Assembly (NCBI RefSeq): GCF_029846175.1
Contig: NZ_JARWAC010000002.1
Span: 62,001 to 126,000, forward strand
Direction of reading: 5' to 3'
Length of the DNA: 64,000 nt
From: Sphaerisporangium sp. TRM90804
GTDB taxonomy: Bacteria > Actinomycetota > Actinomycetes > Streptosporangiales > Streptosporangiaceae
Positions 30,505 to 38,439 of this stretch are shown in pieces; positions within the stretch are counted from its first letter, which is position 1, and each line of letters opens with the position of its first letter. The position numbers and the translations under genes were made by a program. The notes under the pieces are model-generated. The model was given only the letters and a program-made list of their open reading frames with translations, made no database searches and had not been told where the DNA came from.

Positions 30505-31251
30505 TCACGCCGGAACCTCATAATCCAACGGGTTGTCGCCGAGACCGGCGAACGCCTGCAGACGGCGCATGTCGTGGACGACGATGCGGCGGTAGCCGGT
30601 GCCCAGCACGCCCTGCCGTCGCAGCAGGGTGAGCGTCTTGTGGACCGTCGGATCGGCCGCTCCCACCAGGGCGGCCAGCTCGGGCTGGGTGAGGGCGACG
30701 CCGATCATGATTCCCTCACGCACGGGCTCCCCGTACGACCAGGCCAGCTCGACCAGGACGCGGGCCAGCCGCGTCGGGGTGGAGAAGGTGCCGAACTCGA
30801 CGCGCCGGCGGGTGGTCCAGCGCACCTTGTTCACGACGGCGCGGTTGACGGCCAGCGCCGCCTCGGGCGAGCGCTGCAGGAAGCCCAGAAAGGCGTCCTG
30901 GGAGATGAGCTGGACCAGGCACGGCCCGGCCGCGGCGACGGTGGCCCCGCGGGGAAGGCCGTCCAGGGCGGCGAACTCCCCCACGAGGTCGCCGCCGACG
31001 CGGATGCCAAGCAGCGCGACCCTGCCGCTCTCGGTGTTGGCGGTGACCTTGACGCACGCGTCCACCAGCAGGAAGACGTCGGTCGACCGGTCGCCTTCCA
31101 GGATCAGCGTCTCGCCGGTGGTGAACTGCCTCGGGCGCCCCAGCCCGAGCATCTCGTCTCTGACCGGCTCCGGCAGGCTGCCCAGGAGGCTGCCGCGGGG
31201 CCAGTTGCCTACCTTGCGGATCACGCGGCGCCCGGGCTCGGAGCCGATCAT
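30505..31251 (-). CDS. Crp/Fnr-family transcriptional regulator
   Basis: A 248-residue regulator. The N-terminal cyclic-nucleotide-binding barrel carries VGEFAALDGLPRGATV with Glu92 and Arg101, the pair that contacts ribose and phosphate in cAMP receptors. A long helix leads to the C-terminal winged helix-turn-helix LTQPELAALVGAADPTVHKTLTLLRRQGV (about 188-217). No cysteine cluster of the Fnr type. It heads the operon with the cyclase-like and TPR genes. Confidence 0.9.
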   Translation of the reverse strand: MIGSEPGRRVIRKVGNWPRGSLLGSLPEPVRDEMLGLGRPRQFTTGETLILEGDRSTDVFLLVDACVKVTANTESGRVALLGIRVGGDLVGEFAALDGLPRGATVAAAGPCLVQLISQDAFLGFLQRSPEAALAVNRAVVNKVRWTTRRRVEFGTFSTPTRLARVLVELAWSYGEPVREGIMIGVALTQPELAALVGAADPTVHKTLTLLRRQGVLGTGYRRIVVHDMRRLQAFAGLGDNPLDYEVPA

Positions 31252-31471
31252 GATGGTCCTCCAGCGTGTGTGGCGGCCGTTGGGCCGACGGTCGCGACCC
31301 GGTCCCCGCCTGGGCCTGCTGCGTTTTGGTTGTGCTCTTCAACTATGGGAGCGCTTGCTTGCGGACGGCTTGCGGGCAGCCGACAAGGCTCACCGGGCCG
31401 TCGCGGGGCTCATGGCGACCGGGGCGCACCCCTGTGTGACGAAGATCATGGCCGGACGCCGGCGGTTTACT

Positions 31472-31516
31472 CTACGTCTCGTAGTACTACTAGAAGTAGA
31501 ACTACAGCCTGTAGAG
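31472..31516. promoter_or_regulatory. Three tandem 15-bp CTAC-N5-GTAG operator-like units upstream of cydA
   Basis: CTAC occurs at 31472, 31487 and 31502, and GTAG at 31481, 31496 and 31511, so each unit is an inverted repeat CTAC-N5-GTAG plus 2 bp with exact 15-bp spacing. The last unit is a perfect 13-bp dyad (CTACAG C CTGTAG). The array ends 20 bp before the cydA ATG. Half-sites built from TAC/GTA recall operators of the BlaI/MecI/CopY family; this is inference. Confidence 0.75.
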
Positions 31517-31536
31517 CTTCGCACGTGAGAGGGCGC

Positions 31537-33024
31537 ATGGACGCACTGGACCTGGCACGGTGGCAGTTCGGGGTCACCACCGTGTACCACTTCCTCTTCG
31601 TACCCCTGACCATCGGCCTGGGCGTCTTCGTCGCGGGGCTGCAGACGGCATGGCACCGCACCGGCCGGGAGCACTACCTCAGGCTGACCAGGTTCTTCGG
31701 GAAGCTGTTTCTGATCAACTTCGCCATGGGCGTGGTCACCGGCATCGTGCAGGAGTTCCAGTTCGGGATGAACTGGAGTGAGTACTCCACGTTCGTCGGC
31801 GACGTCTTCGGGGCCCCGCTGGCGCTGGAGGCGCTGCTCGCGTTCTTCCTGGAGTCGACGTTCCTCGGGCTGTGGATCTTCGGCTGGGACCGGCTGCCCA
31901 AGCGCGTCCACCTGGCGTGCATCTGGGCCGCCGCCATCGGGTCCAACCTGTCGGCGTACTTCATCCTGGCGGCCAACGCCTGGATGAAGCACCCGGTCGG
32001 GTACGAGGTCACCGGCGGGCGGGCGCGGATGACCGACATCGGGGCCGTGCTGACCAACTCGACCGCCCTGGCCCAGGTGCCGCACGTCATCGCCGCGGCC
32101 TTCCTCGTGGCGGGCGGGTTCGTCATCGCGGTCAGCGCGTACTGGATCCTGCGCGAACGCCGCGCGGACGCGGCCTCCAGGGACGGCGCCGGAACCGCCG
32201 GGGCGCCCGCCGCGCCGGGCGCCCGCTCCCCCGCCGGAGGCGGGCCGGGCCCGCGGGCCGCCGGCCCCTCGATGTGGCGCACCAGTCTGCGGGCCGCGCT
32301 GGTCATGACGGCGATCGCCGGCGTGGTGGTCGCCGGCAGCGGCGACCTGTCGGCCCGGCTGGTGCACGAGCAGCAGCCCATGAAGCTGGCCGCCGCCGAA
32401 GGCCTGCGGCACGACGAGAACGGGGCGCCGTTCTCCCCCGTCCCGGGCGTGGAGGTGCCGAACCTGCTCAGCCTGCTCGCCGCGCACGACCCCCGCGCGC
32501 GGGTGCAGGGCGTCGAGGACATCCAGCGGCGGTACGCCGAGCAGTTCGGCCCCGGCGACTACACCCCGAACGTGCCGGTCGTGTACTGGTCGTTCCGCGT
32601 GATGATCGTCTTCGGCATGGCGGCGGCGAGCCTGGCCGCCCTGGGGCTCTGGCTGACCCGGCGCCGCCGCCCGGCGCCGGCGTGGTTCGCCCGGGCGTGC
32701 CTGTGGGCGCTGCCGCTGCCGACGATCGCGGTGATCGCCGGGTGGCTGCTCAGCGAGATCGGGCGCCAGCCGTGGACCGTGCAGGGCGAGCTGCTCACGG
32801 CGGCGAGCGTCTCCCCCGGCGTCTCGCTCGGCGAGGTCGCGACCTCGCTCGCCGTCTTCACCCTGCTGTACGGGGCCCTGGCGGTGGCCGAGGCCAGGCT
32901 GCTGGTTCGCCACGTCAAGGCGGGCCCCGCGCCGTCCGCCCCGCCGCCGGGGGCGGAGCCCGGCACCGGGCCCGGGGACGCCCGCGCGGCGACCGCCCCG
33001 CTCGCCCCGACCCTGATGTACTAG
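31537..33024 (+). CDS. cydA: Cytochrome bd quinol oxidase subunit I
   Basis: A 495-residue polytopic membrane protein, the haem-bearing subunit of the high-affinity, non-proton-pumping terminal oxidase. It starts MDALDLARWQFGVTTVYHFLFVPLTIGLG with the haem-ligand His18, has NFAMGVVTGIVQEFQFGMNW, the axial methionine region SFRVMIVFG (about residue 352) and GRQPW (about 409). The Q-loop region between helices is of the short type. GAGAGGG precedes the ATG. Three 15-bp inverted repeats sit just upstream, and cydB follows after 9 bp. Confidence 0.95.
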   Translation: MDALDLARWQFGVTTVYHFLFVPLTIGLGVFVAGLQTAWHRTGREHYLRLTRFFGKLFLINFAMGVVTGIVQEFQFGMNWSEYSTFVGDVFGAPLALEALLAFFLESTFLGLWIFGWDRLPKRVHLACIWAAAIGSNLSAYFILAANAWMKHPVGYEVTGGRARMTDIGAVLTNSTALAQVPHVIAAAFLVAGGFVIAVSAYWILRERRADAASRDGAGTAGAPAAPGARSPAGGGPGPRAAGPSMWRTSLRAALVMTAIAGVVVAGSGDLSARLVHEQQPMKLAAAEGLRHDENGAPFSPVPGVEVPNLLSLLAAHDPRARVQGVEDIQRRYAEQFGPGDYTPNVPVVYWSFRVMIVFGMAAASLAALGLWLTRRRRPAPAWFARACLWALPLPTIAVIAGWLLSEIGRQPWTVQGELLTAASVSPGVSLGEVATSLAVFTLLYGALAVAEARLLVRHVKAGPAPSAPPPGAEPGTGPGDARAATAPLAPTLMY

Positions 33025-33033
33025 GAGGCCGCC

Positions 33034-33987
33034 GTGGAGCTCACGACCGTCTGGTTCCTCGCCATCGCCGTCCTGTGGACGGGCTACTTCGTGCTGGAGG
33101 GCTTCGACTTCGGCGTCGGCGCGCTGCTCGGCGTGCTGCCCCGGGGCCGGGCCGAGCGCGGGCAGGCGCTGGAGACGATCGGCCCGGTGTGGGACGGCAA
33201 CGAGGTCTGGCTGATCACCGCCGTCGGCGCCATGTTCGCCGCGTTCCCCGCCTGGTACGCGGGCCTGCTGAGCAGCTTCTACCTGCCGCTGGTCGCGGTG
33301 CTCGCGGGGCTCATCGTGCGGGGCGTCGCCCTGGAGTGGCGCGGCAAGGTGACCGCCCGCGAGCGCCGGCTGTGCGACGCGGGCATCATGGCCGGCAGCG
33401 CGCTGACGGCGTCCCTGTGGGGTGTGATCTTCGGCCATCTGGTGTCGGGCACGGTGACGGCGGCCCTGCTGGGCGGGGCCTTCTCGCTGTCGCTGGCGGT
33501 GCTGCACGGCGCGGTGTTCCTCGGCCTGAAGACCGCCGGCCCGCTGCGCGCCCGCGCGCGCGGCGTCGCGCTGGCGGTCTCGGCGGGGGTGCTGCCGGTC
33601 GCCGCCCTCGTGCTGCCCGCGCTGGCCCGGGCGGCCTCGACCGGCCCCGGCGGCCCCGCGGCCGGTGCGGCGGCCTGGGCGGCGAACCCGCTGCCCTGGG
33701 CCACGGCGCTGGGCGCGATGGTCGCGCTGGCCGCCGCCGTCGCGCTGGTCTGGCGCCGCCGGGAGGGATGGGCGTTCACCGCGACCGCCGCGGCCATCGC
33801 CCTGACCAGCGCGACCCTGTTCGCCGGCCTGTGGCGGGCGCCGCTGCCCGGCCTGACCCTCGCCGAGGCCGCCTCGGGCCCCTACACGCTGGGCGTGCTC
33901 ACCTGGATCGCCCTGGTGGCGCTGCCGTTCGTGCTGGCCTACCAGGGCTGGACGTACTGGGTGTTCCGCAGGCGCGTCACCGCCTGA
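33034..33987 (+). CDS. cydB: Cytochrome bd quinol oxidase subunit II
   Basis: A 317-residue membrane protein with about eight helices. It begins WFLAIAVLWTGYFVLEGFDFGVG, the CydB signature, then IGPVWDGNEVWLI. GGAGG at the junction with cydA sets the GTG start. The transporter genes cydC and cydD, which often follow in actinomycetes, are not here; the next gene is unrelated and on the other strand. Confidence 0.94.
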   Translation: MELTTVWFLAIAVLWTGYFVLEGFDFGVGALLGVLPRGRAERGQALETIGPVWDGNEVWLITAVGAMFAAFPAWYAGLLSSFYLPLVAVLAGLIVRGVALEWRGKVTARERRLCDAGIMAGSALTASLWGVIFGHLVSGTVTAALLGGAFSLSLAVLHGAVFLGLKTAGPLRARARGVALAVSAGVLPVAALVLPALARAASTGPGGPAAGAAAWAANPLPWATALGAMVALAAAVALVWRRREGWAFTATAAAIALTSATLFAGLWRAPLPGLTLAEAASGPYTLGVLTWIALVALPFVLAYQGWTYWVFRRRVTA

Positions 33988-34037: not shown

Positions 34038-34481
34038 TCAGCACATGTCGGGCAGCCCGACCGCGTCGATCCTCCTGCCGAAGTTGGTGTCGTAGGCCTT
34101 GGCGTAGTCGCCGGGGTTCACCCTGCGGCGCTCGGCGGGGTCCCAGTCGATGAAGCAGCCCGTGGCGTTGGAGTAGAAGGAGTAGACGTGGTCGTGCAGG
34201 TTGGACGGCATGTCGCGGTAGCCGCTGGCGGGGGTCCACCGCCACGGCGCCCCCGCGTAGTCGCGGTCGCGCCAGAAGCAGATCTCCCCGCTCCCGCACT
34301 GCTCGGCCGCCCGCCGCAGCGCCGCCGGCTTCTCCCCCGGCGACAGCCGGGCGGACACCGGCCCGTCCGGCGCGGGCCCGCCGGCGGCGCCCGCCTGGAC
34401 GGGCGTGGCGGCCGCCAGCACCATGCTCGTGAACCCGATCGCGGCCGCTGCCGCCCGAACCCCTCGCCTGTGTGGTCTCAC
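34038..34481 (-). CDS. Secreted peptidase inhibitor I36-like protein
   Basis: A 147-residue exported protein. The signal peptide is basic MRPHRRGVRAA, a hydrophobic run and a cleavage site at TPVQAGA. The mature domain has CGSGEICFWRDRDYAGAPWRW and DHVYSFYSNATGCFIDW, the beta/gamma-crystallin-like pattern of the I36 (SMPI-type) family of metalloprotease inhibitors, with paired cysteines. GTG at 34481 follows GAGAGGA. Acts outside the cell. Confidence 0.85.
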   Translation of the reverse strand: MRPHRRGVRAAAAAIGFTSMVLAAATPVQAGAAGGPAPDGPVSARLSPGEKPAALRRAAEQCGSGEICFWRDRDYAGAPWRWTPASGYRDMPSNLHDHVYSFYSNATGCFIDWDPAERRRVNPGDYAKAYDTNFGRRIDAVGLPDMC

Positions 34482-34672
34482 TGTCGGCGTCCTCTCGTGA
34501 CATGGCGCCGGAGGCCGGCCACCGTCGGCGGCGATCTCCCGGCGCACCAAGACAGTCACGGAATGTAGCAATGACGGCACTCAGCGTGACATGACCGCCT
34601 GGTCGCATGACGGTCGCCGCGACGGCAGCCCCTCCTTACCTCCGGGCCATGGAAGCGGCCCCGGCCGGGTCG

Positions 34673-37063
34673 TCAGGGGGCGGTGGCGCGGCGCAGCTCG
34701 TACAGCTCCGACGGAGAGATCGGCATGCGGTCGACCGTGATGCCCTCGGCGTCCTCGACGGCGGCGGCGATGACGGCGGACACCGGGATCACGCCGGCCT
34801 CGCCCGCGCCCTTGACGCCGAGCGGGTTCAGCGGGGACGGCGTCTCCAGGTGCGCCGTCTCCACGAACGGGATCTCGGTGGCGTACGGCATCAGGAAGTC
34901 CATGAAGGAGGCGTTGAGGAGCTGGCCGTGCCCGTCGTACACCATGCGCTCGTACAGCGCGCCGCCGACGCCCTGGGCCACCCCGCCATGGATCTGCCCC
35001 TCGACGATCATCGGGTTGATCAGCCTGCCGCAGTCGTGCACGACGGCGTAGCGCAGGATGCGGATCTCGGCGGTGTCCGGGTCGGTCTCCACGATGGCCG
35101 CGTGCATGCCGGAGGCGAACGTGGAGCGCACAGGGGAGTAGTAGTCGCGGCCCTCCAGCCCCGGCTCCTCCCCCGCCTCCACCGGCGGCCGGTCCATCGA
35201 CGCGGGCCCGGCGAACTGGGTGGCCCTCTTGGCCTCCTCGTCGAAGGCGTACCGCAGCGGGTTGGACAGCACGGCCACCGTGGCCAGCGAGATGGACGCC
35301 TCGGGGTCGCCCGCCACTCGCACCACCCCGTCCTCGATCTCCAGGTCGCGCGGGTCGGCCTCCAGCGCCTCGGCGGCGATCCTGAGCGCCTTGTCGCGGA
35401 CCTTGCGCGCGGCCAGGGCGATCGCGTTGCCGCTCATGACGGCGGCCCGCGAGGCGAACGTGCCGACCGCGTAGCCGAACCGCCGGGTGTCGCCGGTGAC
35501 CACCGAGACGCGGTCGAGCGGCACGCCCAGCTCGGTGGCGGCGATCTGCGCGAACACGGTCTCGTGGCCCTGGCCCTGCGAGGTGAGGCCGGTCGAGACG
35601 TGCACCCGCCCGTCGGAGGTCACCTGCACGTGGCCGCCCTCGTACGGCCCGACGCCGGTGCCCTCGACGTAGCAGGCCAGGCCGATGCCCAGCCGCCTGC
35701 CCTCGGCCGCGGCGCGCTCCTTGGCCTGCGGGAAGGCGTCCCAGCCGATCAGCTCCTTCAGCATGCTCAGCGACTTCGGGTAGTCGCCGCTGTCGTAGAT
35801 GAGCGGCCGCCCGTCCTGGAAGATCAGGCCCTGGTCGTAGGGGAACTCGCCGGGCTGGATGAAGTTGGCCGCGCGCACGGCCGTGCGGTCGAGGCCGAGG
35901 TGGGCGGCGATGCGGTCCATGGTGCGCTCCATGCAGAACACGCCCTGCGGGCGCCCGGCCCCGCGGTACGGCGTTACCTGCACGGTGTTGGTGTAGATCG
36001 AGGAGAACTCCACCCGGTAGGCGCCGATGCGGTAGGGCCCGAGGAGCTGGGTGGCGGTGATGATCGGCACGATGATGCCGTACGGGGTGTAGGCCCCGTG
36101 GTCGTGCAGGATCGTCACGTCCAGGCCGAGGACGCGGCCCTCGTCGTCGAAGCCGACCCGCACGTGCTGCACCTGGGCCCGCTCGTGCGCCGAGGAGATG
36201 AAGTGCTCGCGGCGGTCCTCGGCCCACTTGACCTCCCGGCCGAGCAGCATCGCCGCCCACGGCACCAGCACCTCCTCCGGCCACGGATGCACGATCTTGA
36301 CGCCGAACCCGCCGCCCACGTCGGGCGCGATCACCTCGACCGACGGCAGCGGCAGGCCCAGCTTGGCGGCGACCGCCATGCGCACGCTGGTGGAGGTCTG
36401 GGTGGAGCTGTACACGCGCAGGGAGCGGTCGTCGGCGTCCCACCGGGCGTAGACGCCGCGGCCCTCCAGGGGCGTGGAGGCGCTGCGCTCGATGTCGAGC
36501 CGGAACGCCAGCACGTGCGGCGCGGCGTCGACGGCCTCGCGCGCCCCGGCGCCCCCCGGCGAGGGCACCTCCTGCACCAGGTGCGCGCCGACGTTGCCGG
36601 GCACGTCCTCGTGCACCAGGTGGACGCCCTGCACCGCCTCCTCGATGCCGACGACCGGCTTGAGGAACTCGTAGTCGACCTCGATGAGCGCGGCGGCGTC
36701 CTCGGCCAGGTAGCGGTCGCGCGCCACGACCATGACCACCGGCTCGCCGACGTGGCGCACGACGTCCCTGGCCAGCGGGTAGGCGGTGCGGCCGTGGGTG
36801 AGCGCCGGGTGCGGAATCAGCAGCGGCAGCGGGTCGCGCACCCCTTCGGGAAGGTCCTCCCAGGTGTAGACGGCGACCAGGCCGTCCACCTCCAGCGCGC
36901 CCGACACGTCGATGCCGCGGATGCGGGCGTGGGCGTGGGGGGAGCGCACGAACGCGGCGGCCAGCGCGTCCTTCCCGAGGTCGTCGAGGTAGCGGCCCTC
37001 GCCCGTGATCAGGCGGAGGTCCTCCCTGCGCTGGACCGGCTCGCCGAACAGCTTCGTCGTCAC
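34673..37063 (-). CDS. Molybdenum hydroxylase large subunit (xanthine dehydrogenase / CoxL family)
   Basis: A 796-residue molybdopterin-binding subunit. DVGGGFGVK (about 242-250), TPYRGAGRPQG (about 361-371), TSQGQGHET and GVKGAGEAG (about 749-757, with the catalytic glutamate) are all present. The active-site loop is the YRGAGR form of CO-dehydrogenase-like form II and xanthine-type enzymes, not the AYRCSFR of true CO dehydrogenase. With the permease and PucR neighbours, xanthine or a related purine is the likely substrate. It follows the iron-sulfur subunit by 13 bp on the same strand. Confidence 0.92.
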   Translation of the reverse strand: MTTKLFGEPVQRREDLRLITGEGRYLDDLGKDALAAAFVRSPHAHARIRGIDVSGALEVDGLVAVYTWEDLPEGVRDPLPLLIPHPALTHGRTAYPLARDVVRHVGEPVVMVVARDRYLAEDAAALIEVDYEFLKPVVGIEEAVQGVHLVHEDVPGNVGAHLVQEVPSPGGAGAREAVDAAPHVLAFRLDIERSASTPLEGRGVYARWDADDRSLRVYSSTQTSTSVRMAVAAKLGLPLPSVEVIAPDVGGGFGVKIVHPWPEEVLVPWAAMLLGREVKWAEDRREHFISSAHERAQVQHVRVGFDDEGRVLGLDVTILHDHGAYTPYGIIVPIITATQLLGPYRIGAYRVEFSSIYTNTVQVTPYRGAGRPQGVFCMERTMDRIAAHLGLDRTAVRAANFIQPGEFPYDQGLIFQDGRPLIYDSGDYPKSLSMLKELIGWDAFPQAKERAAAEGRRLGIGLACYVEGTGVGPYEGGHVQVTSDGRVHVSTGLTSQGQGHETVFAQIAATELGVPLDRVSVVTGDTRRFGYAVGTFASRAAVMSGNAIALAARKVRDKALRIAAEALEADPRDLEIEDGVVRVAGDPEASISLATVAVLSNPLRYAFDEEAKRATQFAGPASMDRPPVEAGEEPGLEGRDYYSPVRSTFASGMHAAIVETDPDTAEIRILRYAVVHDCGRLINPMIVEGQIHGGVAQGVGGALYERMVYDGHGQLLNASFMDFLMPYATEIPFVETAHLETPSPLNPLGVKGAGEAGVIPVSAVIAAAVEDAEGITVDRMPISPSELYELRRATAP

Positions 37064-37076
37064 GCCTCATCACCCA

Positions 37077-37574
37077 TCAGCTTCGCCCTTCGGCCTCGCC
37101 CATCAGCTCGGACGCGCGGTGGACCGCCTTCACGATGTTCTGGTAGCCGGTGCACCGGCACAGGTTGCCCGAGATGCCCTCCACCACCTCGTCGTCGCTG
37201 GGCGCGGGGTTGTCACGCAGCAGGGCGGTGACCGTGCACAGGAAGCCGGGGGTGCAGAAGCCGCACTGCAGCGCGTGGCTCTCGGAGAACGCGCGCTGCA
37301 CCGGCGACAGCGAACCGTCGGGCTCGCGCAGCCCCTCCACGGTGGTGATCTCGCGGCCGTCCACGGTGACCGCGAAGGTCAGGCACGAGCGCACGGGCTC
37401 GCCGTCCAGCAGCACCGTGCAGCACCCGCAGACGCCGTGCTCGCAGCCGACGTGGGTGCCGGTGAGCCCGAGGTCGTGGCGCAGGCAGTCCGACAGCAGC
37501 CGCCGGCCGGGGACCCTGGTCTCGCGCGGGACGCCGTTGACGGTCAGGCGGATCTCGTGCAGCTTCTCACCCAT
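37077..37574 (-). CDS. Molybdenum hydroxylase 2Fe-2S subunit
   Basis: A 165-residue electron-transfer subunit with two [2Fe-2S] clusters. The plant-ferredoxin-type cluster uses GCEHGVCGCCTVLLDG plus the cysteine in RSCL; the second uses QCGFCTPG and NLCRCTGY. Length and order are standard for CoxS/XdhC-type subunits. It overlaps the FAD-subunit gene by 8 bp and is followed by the molybdenum subunit. Confidence 0.95.
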   Translation of the reverse strand: MGEKLHEIRLTVNGVPRETRVPGRRLLSDCLRHDLGLTGTHVGCEHGVCGCCTVLLDGEPVRSCLTFAVTVDGREITTVEGLREPDGSLSPVQRAFSESHALQCGFCTPGFLCTVTALLRDNPAPSDDEVVEGISGNLCRCTGYQNIVKAVHRASELMGEAEGRS

Positions 37575-38439
37575 CGGCGGCCTCCCCGGCGGCGACGCGC
37601 AGCGCGCGCTCGGCGAGCACCCCGGTCAGGTGCCGCCGGTAGCCCGCGGTCGCGTGGATGTCGTCCCCGGGGTCGACGCGCAGGCTCACCGCGCGCGCCA
37701 CCGAGGGCCAGTCGACGGTCGCGGCGGGGCGCCCGCCGCACTCCTCGGTCACGTCCAGCGGCGCCGGGCGCGGGCCGACGCTCACGCAGGCCACCCGCGC
37801 CGACCGGATGCGCAGGTCGTCGTCGAGGCTCACGACGGCCGCGACCCCCGCGACCGCGTAGTCGCCGTGCCTGCGGGCGACCTCGGCGAAGGCGGTGCCG
37901 GTGCGCGGCGTCAGGGCGGGGAAGAACGCCGAGACGGCCAGCTCCCCGGGCTCGGCCGCCGACTCCATCGGGCCGGTGAAGAAGTCGGCGGCCGGGACGT
38001 CGCGCTCGCCGCCGCCGTGCCGGGCGAGCCGCACCGACCCGCCCAGCACGACGAGCACGGCGGGCATCTCGGCGGACGGGTCGGCGTGCACCAGGCTGCC
38101 CACCACGGTGCCCCGGTTGCGGATCACCGGGTGCGCCACGTGACGCAGCGCCGTGCGCAGCAGGGGCTGGGCCCGCGCGGCGGAGTCGGACCGCTCGACG
38201 GCGGCGTGCCTGGCCAGCGCGCCCACCCGCACCCCGGCGCCGCCGGCCTCGATGGTGTCAAGCTCGGGGACGCGGTTGATGTCGACCAGGTGCGCGGGGG
38301 CGGCCAGCCGCATGTTGAGCAGGGGGATCAGGCTCTGGCCGCCGGCCAGCACCTTGCCGTGCGGCGCGGTCGCGGCGAGGATCTCCAGAGCCTCGCCGAC
38401 GTCGCGCGGCGCGTGGTAGTCGAACGCCGAAGGCTTCAC
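37567..38439 (-). CDS. Molybdenum hydroxylase FAD-binding subunit
   Basis: A 290-residue subunit of the CoxM type: MKPSAFDYHAPRDVGEALEIL, then KVLAGGQSLIPLLNMRLA (pyrophosphate-binding loop) and RNRGTVVGSLVHADPSAE. It hands electrons from the iron-sulfur clusters to the final acceptor. GTG at 38439 overlaps the permease TGA as GTGA with AGGAG upstream, so the operon order is permease, FAD, iron-sulfur, molybdenum subunit. Confidence 0.94.
   Translation of the reverse strand: MKPSAFDYHAPRDVGEALEILAATAPHGKVLAGGQSLIPLLNMRLAAPAHLVDINRVPELDTIEAGGAGVRVGALARHAAVERSDSAARAQPLLRTALRHVAHPVIRNRGTVVGSLVHADPSAEMPAVLVVLGGSVRLARHGGGERDVPAADFFTGPMESAAEPGELAVSAFFPALTPRTGTAFAEVARRHGDYAVAGVAAVVSLDDDLRIRSARVACVSVGPRPAPLDVTEECGGRPAATVDWPSVARAVSLRVDPGDDIHATAGYRRHLTGVLAERALRVAAGEAADG

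Follow-up and report, generated by a model that had tools for sequence, protein, structure and literature searches.

When their main respiratory branch is limited, actinomycetes turn to cytochrome bd as the alternative oxidase. Among the described systems closest to the locus examined here is the BlaI regulon of M. tuberculosis. Binding of BlaI at cytochrome bd promoters of this species is reported in an excerpt of PMC5473688, which points to Sala et al. (2009), and according to an excerpt of PMC12565901 the gene preceding the ATP synthase is transcribed less in M. smegmatis when the same protein is overproduced there, and EMSA shows the protein binding the Rv1303 promoter. Both cydA and blaI of M. 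tuberculosis are lower on cholesterol (excerpt of PMC7771538), a joint drop that fits common control. SenX3-RegX3 is named as a regulator of mycobacterial cydAB (PMC5874750, excerpt), and the excerpts of PMC4757040 and PMC9834060 contained no BlaI motif. In M. smegmatis, Crp1 activates cydAB, the CRP consensus being TGTGA-N6-TCACA, and mutation of both Crp sites still left a 7.3-fold induction of cydAB; BlaI is absent from the main text of that study as far as the excerpt extends (PMC7739888). For BlaI_0696 of C. thermocellum, the authors inferred that each target is occupied by four protomers (PMC8457756, excerpt), and the repressor CopY is described as structurally related to MecI and BlaI (excerpt of PMC5772342).

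The window (the whole 64-kb stretch of DNA that was analyzed) carries three CTAC-N5-GTAG dyads before cydAB (Table 1). The dyads start at 31472, 31487 and 31502, a period of exactly 15 bp, and both their positions and their period are as the initial annotation had described them. That annotation also placed the array 20 bp from the cydA start, counting from 31516; the array does lie just before cydA, but the distance from the end of the last dyad to the cydA ATG (31537) is 22 bp.

Table 1. Coordinates of features at the cydAB locus within the window.
Feature	Coordinates	Strand	Basis
Divergent Crp/Fnr-type regulator	30505..31251	-	PF00027 + PF13545
CRP-like box TGTGACGAAGATCATG, decayed; putative activator site	31435..31450	+	7 of 9 fixed bases
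Putative -35-like hexamer TTACTC, running into dyad 1	31467..31472	+	Column conservation
Full array with outer flanks CTCTAC...GTAGAGC; putative BlaI-family repressor operator	31470..31517	.	Conservation, matching sites at blaI
Dyad 1, CTAC-N5-GTAG = CTACGTCTCGTAG; flanked form CTCTAC-N5-GTAGTA	31472..31484	.	Pattern match, conservation at best cydA matches
Dyad 2 = CTACTAGAAGTAG; TACTAC-N5-GTAGAA; TA linker in common with dyad 1	31487..31499	.	Pattern match, alignment
Dyad 3 = CTACAGCCTGTAG; AACTAC-N5-GTAGAG; linker to dyad 2 is AA, not TA	31502..31514	.	Pattern match, alignment
GAGAGGG, likely ribosome-binding site	31527..31533	+	Sequence
cydA, cytochrome bd oxidase subunit I	31537..33024	+	PF01654, E 3.4e-155
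cydB, cytochrome bd oxidase subunit II	33034..33987	+	PF02322, E 4.1e-81

When the whole 64-kb window was searched, CTAC-N5-GTAG had three matches, all of them within the array, whereas 100 dinucleotide shuffles gave a mean of 0.08 matches per window and 1 at most. No other 4-base dyads with an N5 gap, whatever their words, occur three in a row at period 15 elsewhere in the window, and no other triple of a same-word dyad was found there (gaps 0-10, the twelve shortest non-overlapping periods of each). The operator word TACANNTGTA (TACA-NN-TGTA) was also tried and has no match in the window. The 8.32-Mb genome that includes the window (G000) contains 25 exact single CTAC-N5-GTAG dyads, compared with 334 for a control in which the same pattern is read backwards without being complemented, which makes CTAC-N5-GTAG an uncommon word in this genome; base order in codons together with avoidance of TAG may be the cause. 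The initial annotation had proposed a genome search for clusters of the dyad. We found the exact 28-bp tandem pair in two places only, the cydA array and G000:C4:293666-293693, where it precedes a blaI-blaR-like operon. Downstream of cydAB, the window encodes a small, apparently secreted protein (34038-34580; peptidase inhibitor I36 match of 30.8 bits against a cut-off of 21.1) and, on the minus strand at 34673-38439, a molybdopterin hydroxylase cluster with large and 2Fe-2S subunits assigned by Pfam, which by our reading also has an FAD-type subunit and is carbon monoxide dehydrogenase-like.

The initial annotation had named loss of the units upstream of cydA in relatives as an outcome that would count against it; the units are kept. 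A 15-phased pair with 15-16 of its 16 fixed bases was present at 80 of 99 best cydA matches and the other 19 scored 8-11, while the backwards control reached a maximum of 12 at the same 99 upstream regions. These regions represent one best match per genome, with orthology assigned by best match, and come from the 114 genomes with a match among 120 searched; the other 15 of the 114 had a best cydA match that was excluded, being weak or incomplete, absent from the listing, or located at a contig edge. Second cydA copies from genomes already in the set (28 among the matches listed) had no exact dyad and a best pair score of 11, and two of these 28 had one dyad at 7/8. Larger surveys were selected by the motif itself, leaving the set of best cydA matches as the fair test. 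In these surveys, the exact tandem pair was found in 159 of 297 family genomes (8 of 297 for the backwards control, from a hand count of the table) and, in a set of 296 genomes from the class, in 20 of the 28 that belong to the family but in none of the remaining 268. The 43-bp triple occurred in 54 stretches among 84,980 genomes (one genome per species), 53 of them actinomycete, including Streptosporangium, Microtetraspora, Herbidospora, Planotetraspora and one member of the Nocardiopsaceae. All but one of the 53 lie 18-31 bp before cydA, and in the remaining one (L150) the locus is cut at its edge and the gene is not visible. The last of the 54 comes from a Treponema MAG (L135), in a GTAGTAG-rich stretch with no match to the five query proteins, and was set aside as chance.

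The spacing and the bases that surround the dyads are also conserved. Of 157 intervals between adjacent dyads, 144 measure 15 bp and 5 measure 18 bp. The consensus of 34 exact triples is TTGCTCTAC-N5-GTAGTACTACT-N4-GTAGaACTAC-N5-GTAGAGC, in which eight bases per dyad are forced by the selection. Among the unforced positions, TGCT before dyad 1 is conserved at 0.91-0.97 and the T that precedes it at 0.76, the TA that links dyads 1 and 2 at 0.97 and 1.0, the T at +19 inside dyad 2 at 0.97, and the AGC after dyad 3 at 0.94-0.97. The linker between dyads 2 and 3 has A at 0.65 followed by A at 1.0 in these triples, and is mostly AA or CA in the family. The outer flanks of the array mirror each other (CTCTAC and GTAGAG).

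The second tandem pair of the genome links the array to a candidate regulator. Its two dyads, joined by a TA linker, lie ~10 bp before the start of a gene for a 118-aa BlaI-family protein, which is directly followed by a gene for a 308-aa metalloprotease. The BlaI protein matches PF03965 at 83.6 bits (cut-off 22.6), and the nearest solved structure is 2g9w (E 1.4e-26), which we take to be Rv1846c, the BlaI of M. tuberculosis; a penicillinase repressor and then MecI come next. It falls below the models of the named repressors (33.6 against 180 bits for BlaI_of_BCL, 23.7 against 250 for MecI_of_mecA, and 36.5 against 121.95 for CopY_TcrY) and is a member of the family, not one of these three. 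The metalloprotease has an HExxH motif, read as HETAH, and matches PF01435 at 46.9 bits (cut-off 20.3). Against the M56 (BlaR1 peptidase) model PF05569 it scores 20 bits, below the cut-off of 31, and no Pfam match to an extracellular penicillin-binding sensor domain was obtained for it at E <= 0.001. A dyad before blaI itself, as expected of a BlaI-type operator, was found both in this genome and in its relatives.

All 120 family genomes searched have a relative of blaI. Of these 120 we examined 70 blaI upstream regions: 47 have a 15-phased pair at 15 or more of 16 bases and 56 at 13 or more, the control maximum being 12. For 58 genomes both genes could be compared, counting a score of at least 13 as an array at cydA, and a pair of at least 13 or an exact dyad as a site at blaI. 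By this count, 45 genomes have both, two have the cydA array only, six the blaI site only, and five neither (Fisher p 0.0017, kinship ignored). One of the genomes counted as blaI-only (L341, G067) falls into this class for a plain reason: its array is located between blaI-blaR and a divergent cydA of a second type, which has 33% identity to that of the window. The same layout, with the array between divergent blaI-blaR and another cydA-type gene, was found at three further loci (L046, L048 and L053). Two results run counter to a strict association: 19 of the 99 best cydA matches have no array although a blaI relative is present in every genome searched, and 11 of the 58 genomes have no array at the cydA examined, six of these having a site at blaI.

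For the other families of the class, we hand-picked 22 genomes for spread from the 268, 20 of which have a BlaI match and 21 a CydA match. In nine of the 22, blaI lies within ~1.2 kb of a cydA-type gene. The two genes are divergent, with 107-273 bp from match to match, in seven of these (G321, G335, G352, G314, G392, G298 and G349) and divergent at ~850 bp in G332, and in G386 the cydA-type gene is on the same strand behind blaI-blaR. Using a cut-off of at least 10 of 12 bases that was set after earlier results had been viewed, we found TACTAC-N5-GTAGTA no more than 200 bp from blaI in 14 of the 20 genomes with a BlaI match, and at the same range from the best cydA-type gene in 14 of the 21 with a CydA match (control 0 and 0). 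The identical 14 genomes carry the site at both genes, and five of the 19 genomes with both genes have it at neither. Seven of the 14 have the two genes diverging from one intergenic region, which makes the counts at blaI and at cydA dependent on each other there; when these are removed, seven genomes with both sites and five with neither are left. Among 20 adjacent intervals at cydA in these families, a spacing of 19 bp is commonest (7), 15 bp occurs in G335, G352 and G392, and the others are 22, 23, 24, 3 and larger values. This variety indicates a site of ~17 bp for which 15 bp is one of several permitted spacings that became fixed in the family of the window. With 15-bp packing, neighboring 17-bp sites overlap by two bases.

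Judged from the sequence comparisons, the array very probably serves as operator for a winged-helix repressor of the BlaI family with control over the cytochrome bd oxidase. The initial annotation had suggested that BlaI/MecI-type repressors might bind such an array, and the suggestion gains support from the sites before blaI, from the adjoining position of blaI and cydA-type genes in nine of 22 genomes of other families, and from the conservation at cydA. These patterns suggest that a repressor named for penicillin resistance serves the control of respiration in this group. From the family we infer binding, repression, BlaI cleavage and cooperativity; repression of cydAB is taken as more likely than its activation.

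The alternative that survives best keeps BlaI at the array and gives it an activating or dual role at cydAB, in which RNA polymerase would touch the outermost dimer. The array abuts the -35-like hexamer, which reads TTGCTC in most of the 34 aligned triples and TTACTC in the window, and the T at +19 is conserved in 97% of them, so promoter elements and sites seem to be interleaved. (The hexamer is assigned from conservation only, since no match to a sigma-70 consensus promoter was found.) However, the end of the array is only 22 bp from the start codon, and in the excerpts of PMC12565901 and PMC8457756 the BlaI proteins act as repressors, and we consider activation unlikely.

It appears very unlikely that the array is in truth bound by a redox repressor, for example Rex, or by the genome's second BlaI-like protein (L002). 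In other actinomycetes Rex is known to control cydAB, and the Rex operator consensus is TGTGAA-N4-TTCACA; near cydA, however, nothing was found within 3 mismatches of this sequence, and a Rex-type site was rejected as the operator. The genome does encode a second PF03965 protein, but none of the 25 exact dyads is in its locus, whereas the first BlaI has a pair ~10 bp before its start.

Still less probable is binding of the array by the divergent Crp/Fnr-type protein, although its gene adjoins cydA, faces it across a common intergenic region, and encodes a regulator by its domains. A relative of this protein was present within 2.5 kb upstream in only one of 43 eligible array loci, and the protein was rejected as a likely binder because it is so rarely beside cydA at such loci. 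The presence of the array before blaI also argues against a binder of this type. Moreover, the dyads are unlike TGTGA-N6-TCACA, a type of box that about half of the relatives have separately, upstream of the array. In a loosened form written after the relatives had been viewed, TGTGA-N6-TCNCA, this box has all its fixed bases (9/9) in 39 of the 77 array-bearing relatives, 25 of which have it in the form TGTGACGAAGATCGCA; no complete copy was found at the 28 second cydA copies among the matches listed. The strict TGTGA-N6-TCACA reaches 9/10 in 40 of the 77 arrays, against a best of 8 in the same 28 second copies among the matches listed. (Both counts use 77 of the 80 arrays, L171-L173 being outside the 200-bp limit.) The window's own box has only 7 of the 9 fixed bases, no better than the best second copy (7, among the 28 listed), and is therefore described as decayed. 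Finally, a role for the dyads in RNA, as a leader hairpin or attenuator, has a very low probability: the array is a nested palindrome that could fold if transcribed, but its folding does not clearly surpass that of its shuffles (z -0.92, with equal or better folding in 38 of 200), its spacing varies outside the family (19, 15, 22-24 and others), and its sites also precede blaI, as expected for protein sites.

Returning to BlaI as the repressor, each 17-bp site (consensus TACTAC-N5-GTAGTA, with the outermost half-sites CTCTAC and GTAGAG in the family) would bind one BlaI dimer. As 15 bp corresponds to 1.43 turns at 10.5 bp per turn, adjacent dimers would be placed on almost opposite sides of the helix, and with this overlapping packing the array could fill cooperatively. 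The array extends from the -35-like hexamer towards the ribosome-binding site of cydA, so that dimers bound there would block RNA polymerase. BlaI bound at its own pair would confer autoregulation. The likely release step is cleavage or release of BlaI, on a signal, by the BlaR-like membrane metalloprotease in which no penicillin sensor was detected, which would free both blaI and cydAB, and a CRP-type activator at the upstream box may supply activation. As the signal, our leading guesses are that electrons pass poorly through the main oxidase or that the envelope is under stress.

Dyads at several other loci are recorded here as separate observations. One exact 15-phased pair (L052 1501-1528, G075) lies ~160 bp before a succinate dehydrogenase/fumarate reductase membrane-subunit gene (PF01127), which is followed by an apparent flavoprotein gene, making this another respiratory gene with an array. 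A second exact pair (L051 1501-1528, G103) lies ~20 bp before an FAD-binding gene (PF01494). In the genome of the window, a single dyad with full outer flanks, CTCTACAGACTGTAGAGC (L035 1246-1258, G000:C20:68745), is found 33 bp before a DUF3817 (PF12823) gene, a possible further target on sequence grounds, and a tandem pair with one mismatch (L033 766-793, G000:C17:766-793) lies between the end of a gene that reads as clpC-like and a TIM-barrel gene whose product resembles EboE, below the cut-off of the EboE model.

A wider proposal, to which we would give slightly less than even chances, is that BlaI-BlaR in the Actinomycetes is primarily a respiratory switch, as opposed to a beta-lactam system. 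Cytochrome bd, often encoded next door, would be its core target and perhaps the ancestral one; the sensor-less BlaR protease would read the state of the respiratory membrane, the overlapping 15-bp array of this family would make the switch cooperative and nearly all-or-none, and a repressor of this kind would account for part of the Crp-independent induction of cydAB in M. smegmatis. The array offers a precise, testable pair of regulator and operator, and its overlapping packing a clean system for how repressor dimers share DNA. It also indicates that a regulator usually associated with beta-lactams appears tied to respiration across several actinomycete families, points to a candidate behind the share of cydAB induction that does not depend on Crp, and raises the question of what a BlaR without a penicillin sensor detects. 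Interest in the system will rise if BlaR proves to sense respiration.

Compared with the described systems, the locus resembles the M. tuberculosis BlaI (Rv1846c) regulon in that the closest solved structure to its BlaI is 2g9w and cytochrome bd is a predicted target, and differs in that the cydA site is a 15-phased triple. The M. tuberculosis regulon is also reported to include the ATP synthase, whereas here the ATP synthase was rejected as a further target: neither of the two a-subunit genes (PF00119 matches, L251 and L252) has a dyad of at least 7/8 in the 1.5 kb upstream, and the promoter of the operon could lie beyond that distance. With the M. smegmatis Crp1 system, in which two TGTGA-N6-TCACA-like sites are needed for cydA induction under respiratory inhibition (PMC7739888, excerpt), it shares a comparable box that is conserved at about half of the arrays. 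The further element that the M. smegmatis authors suspect, in a 20-bp upstream stretch (same excerpt), is not in the place expected of a BlaI operator. The CopY-type operator, TACA-NN-TGTA (excerpt of PMC7253601), likewise has palindromic TAC...GTA half-sites, but the array has N5 between TAC and GTA in place of N4, and tandem sites that overlap. BlaI_0696 and BlaI_1845 of C. thermocellum (PMC8457756, excerpt) are similar in operator design: BlaI_0696 recognizes inverted repeats of GTCTAT five nucleotides apart, with two ordered motif matches per target, and there is autoregulation together with BlaR genes; in contrast, the targets are read as a beta-lactam response and the excerpt names no cyd genes. 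The initial annotation had held that few operators are built as tandem phased dyads, and this is only partly right given the two ordered BlaI dyads per target described in that excerpt. In view of the M. tuberculosis (PMC5473688) and C. thermocellum (PMC8457756) reports, as excerpted, neither the link between BlaI and cyd genes nor the pairing of BlaI dyads is new. The 15-bp array and its breadth were not found in the literature searched, outside which most subscription papers fall, and as far as that literature extends, what is new relative to these systems is the overlapping 15-bp array, its fixed place before cydA across the family, and the connection with blaI seen in several other families.
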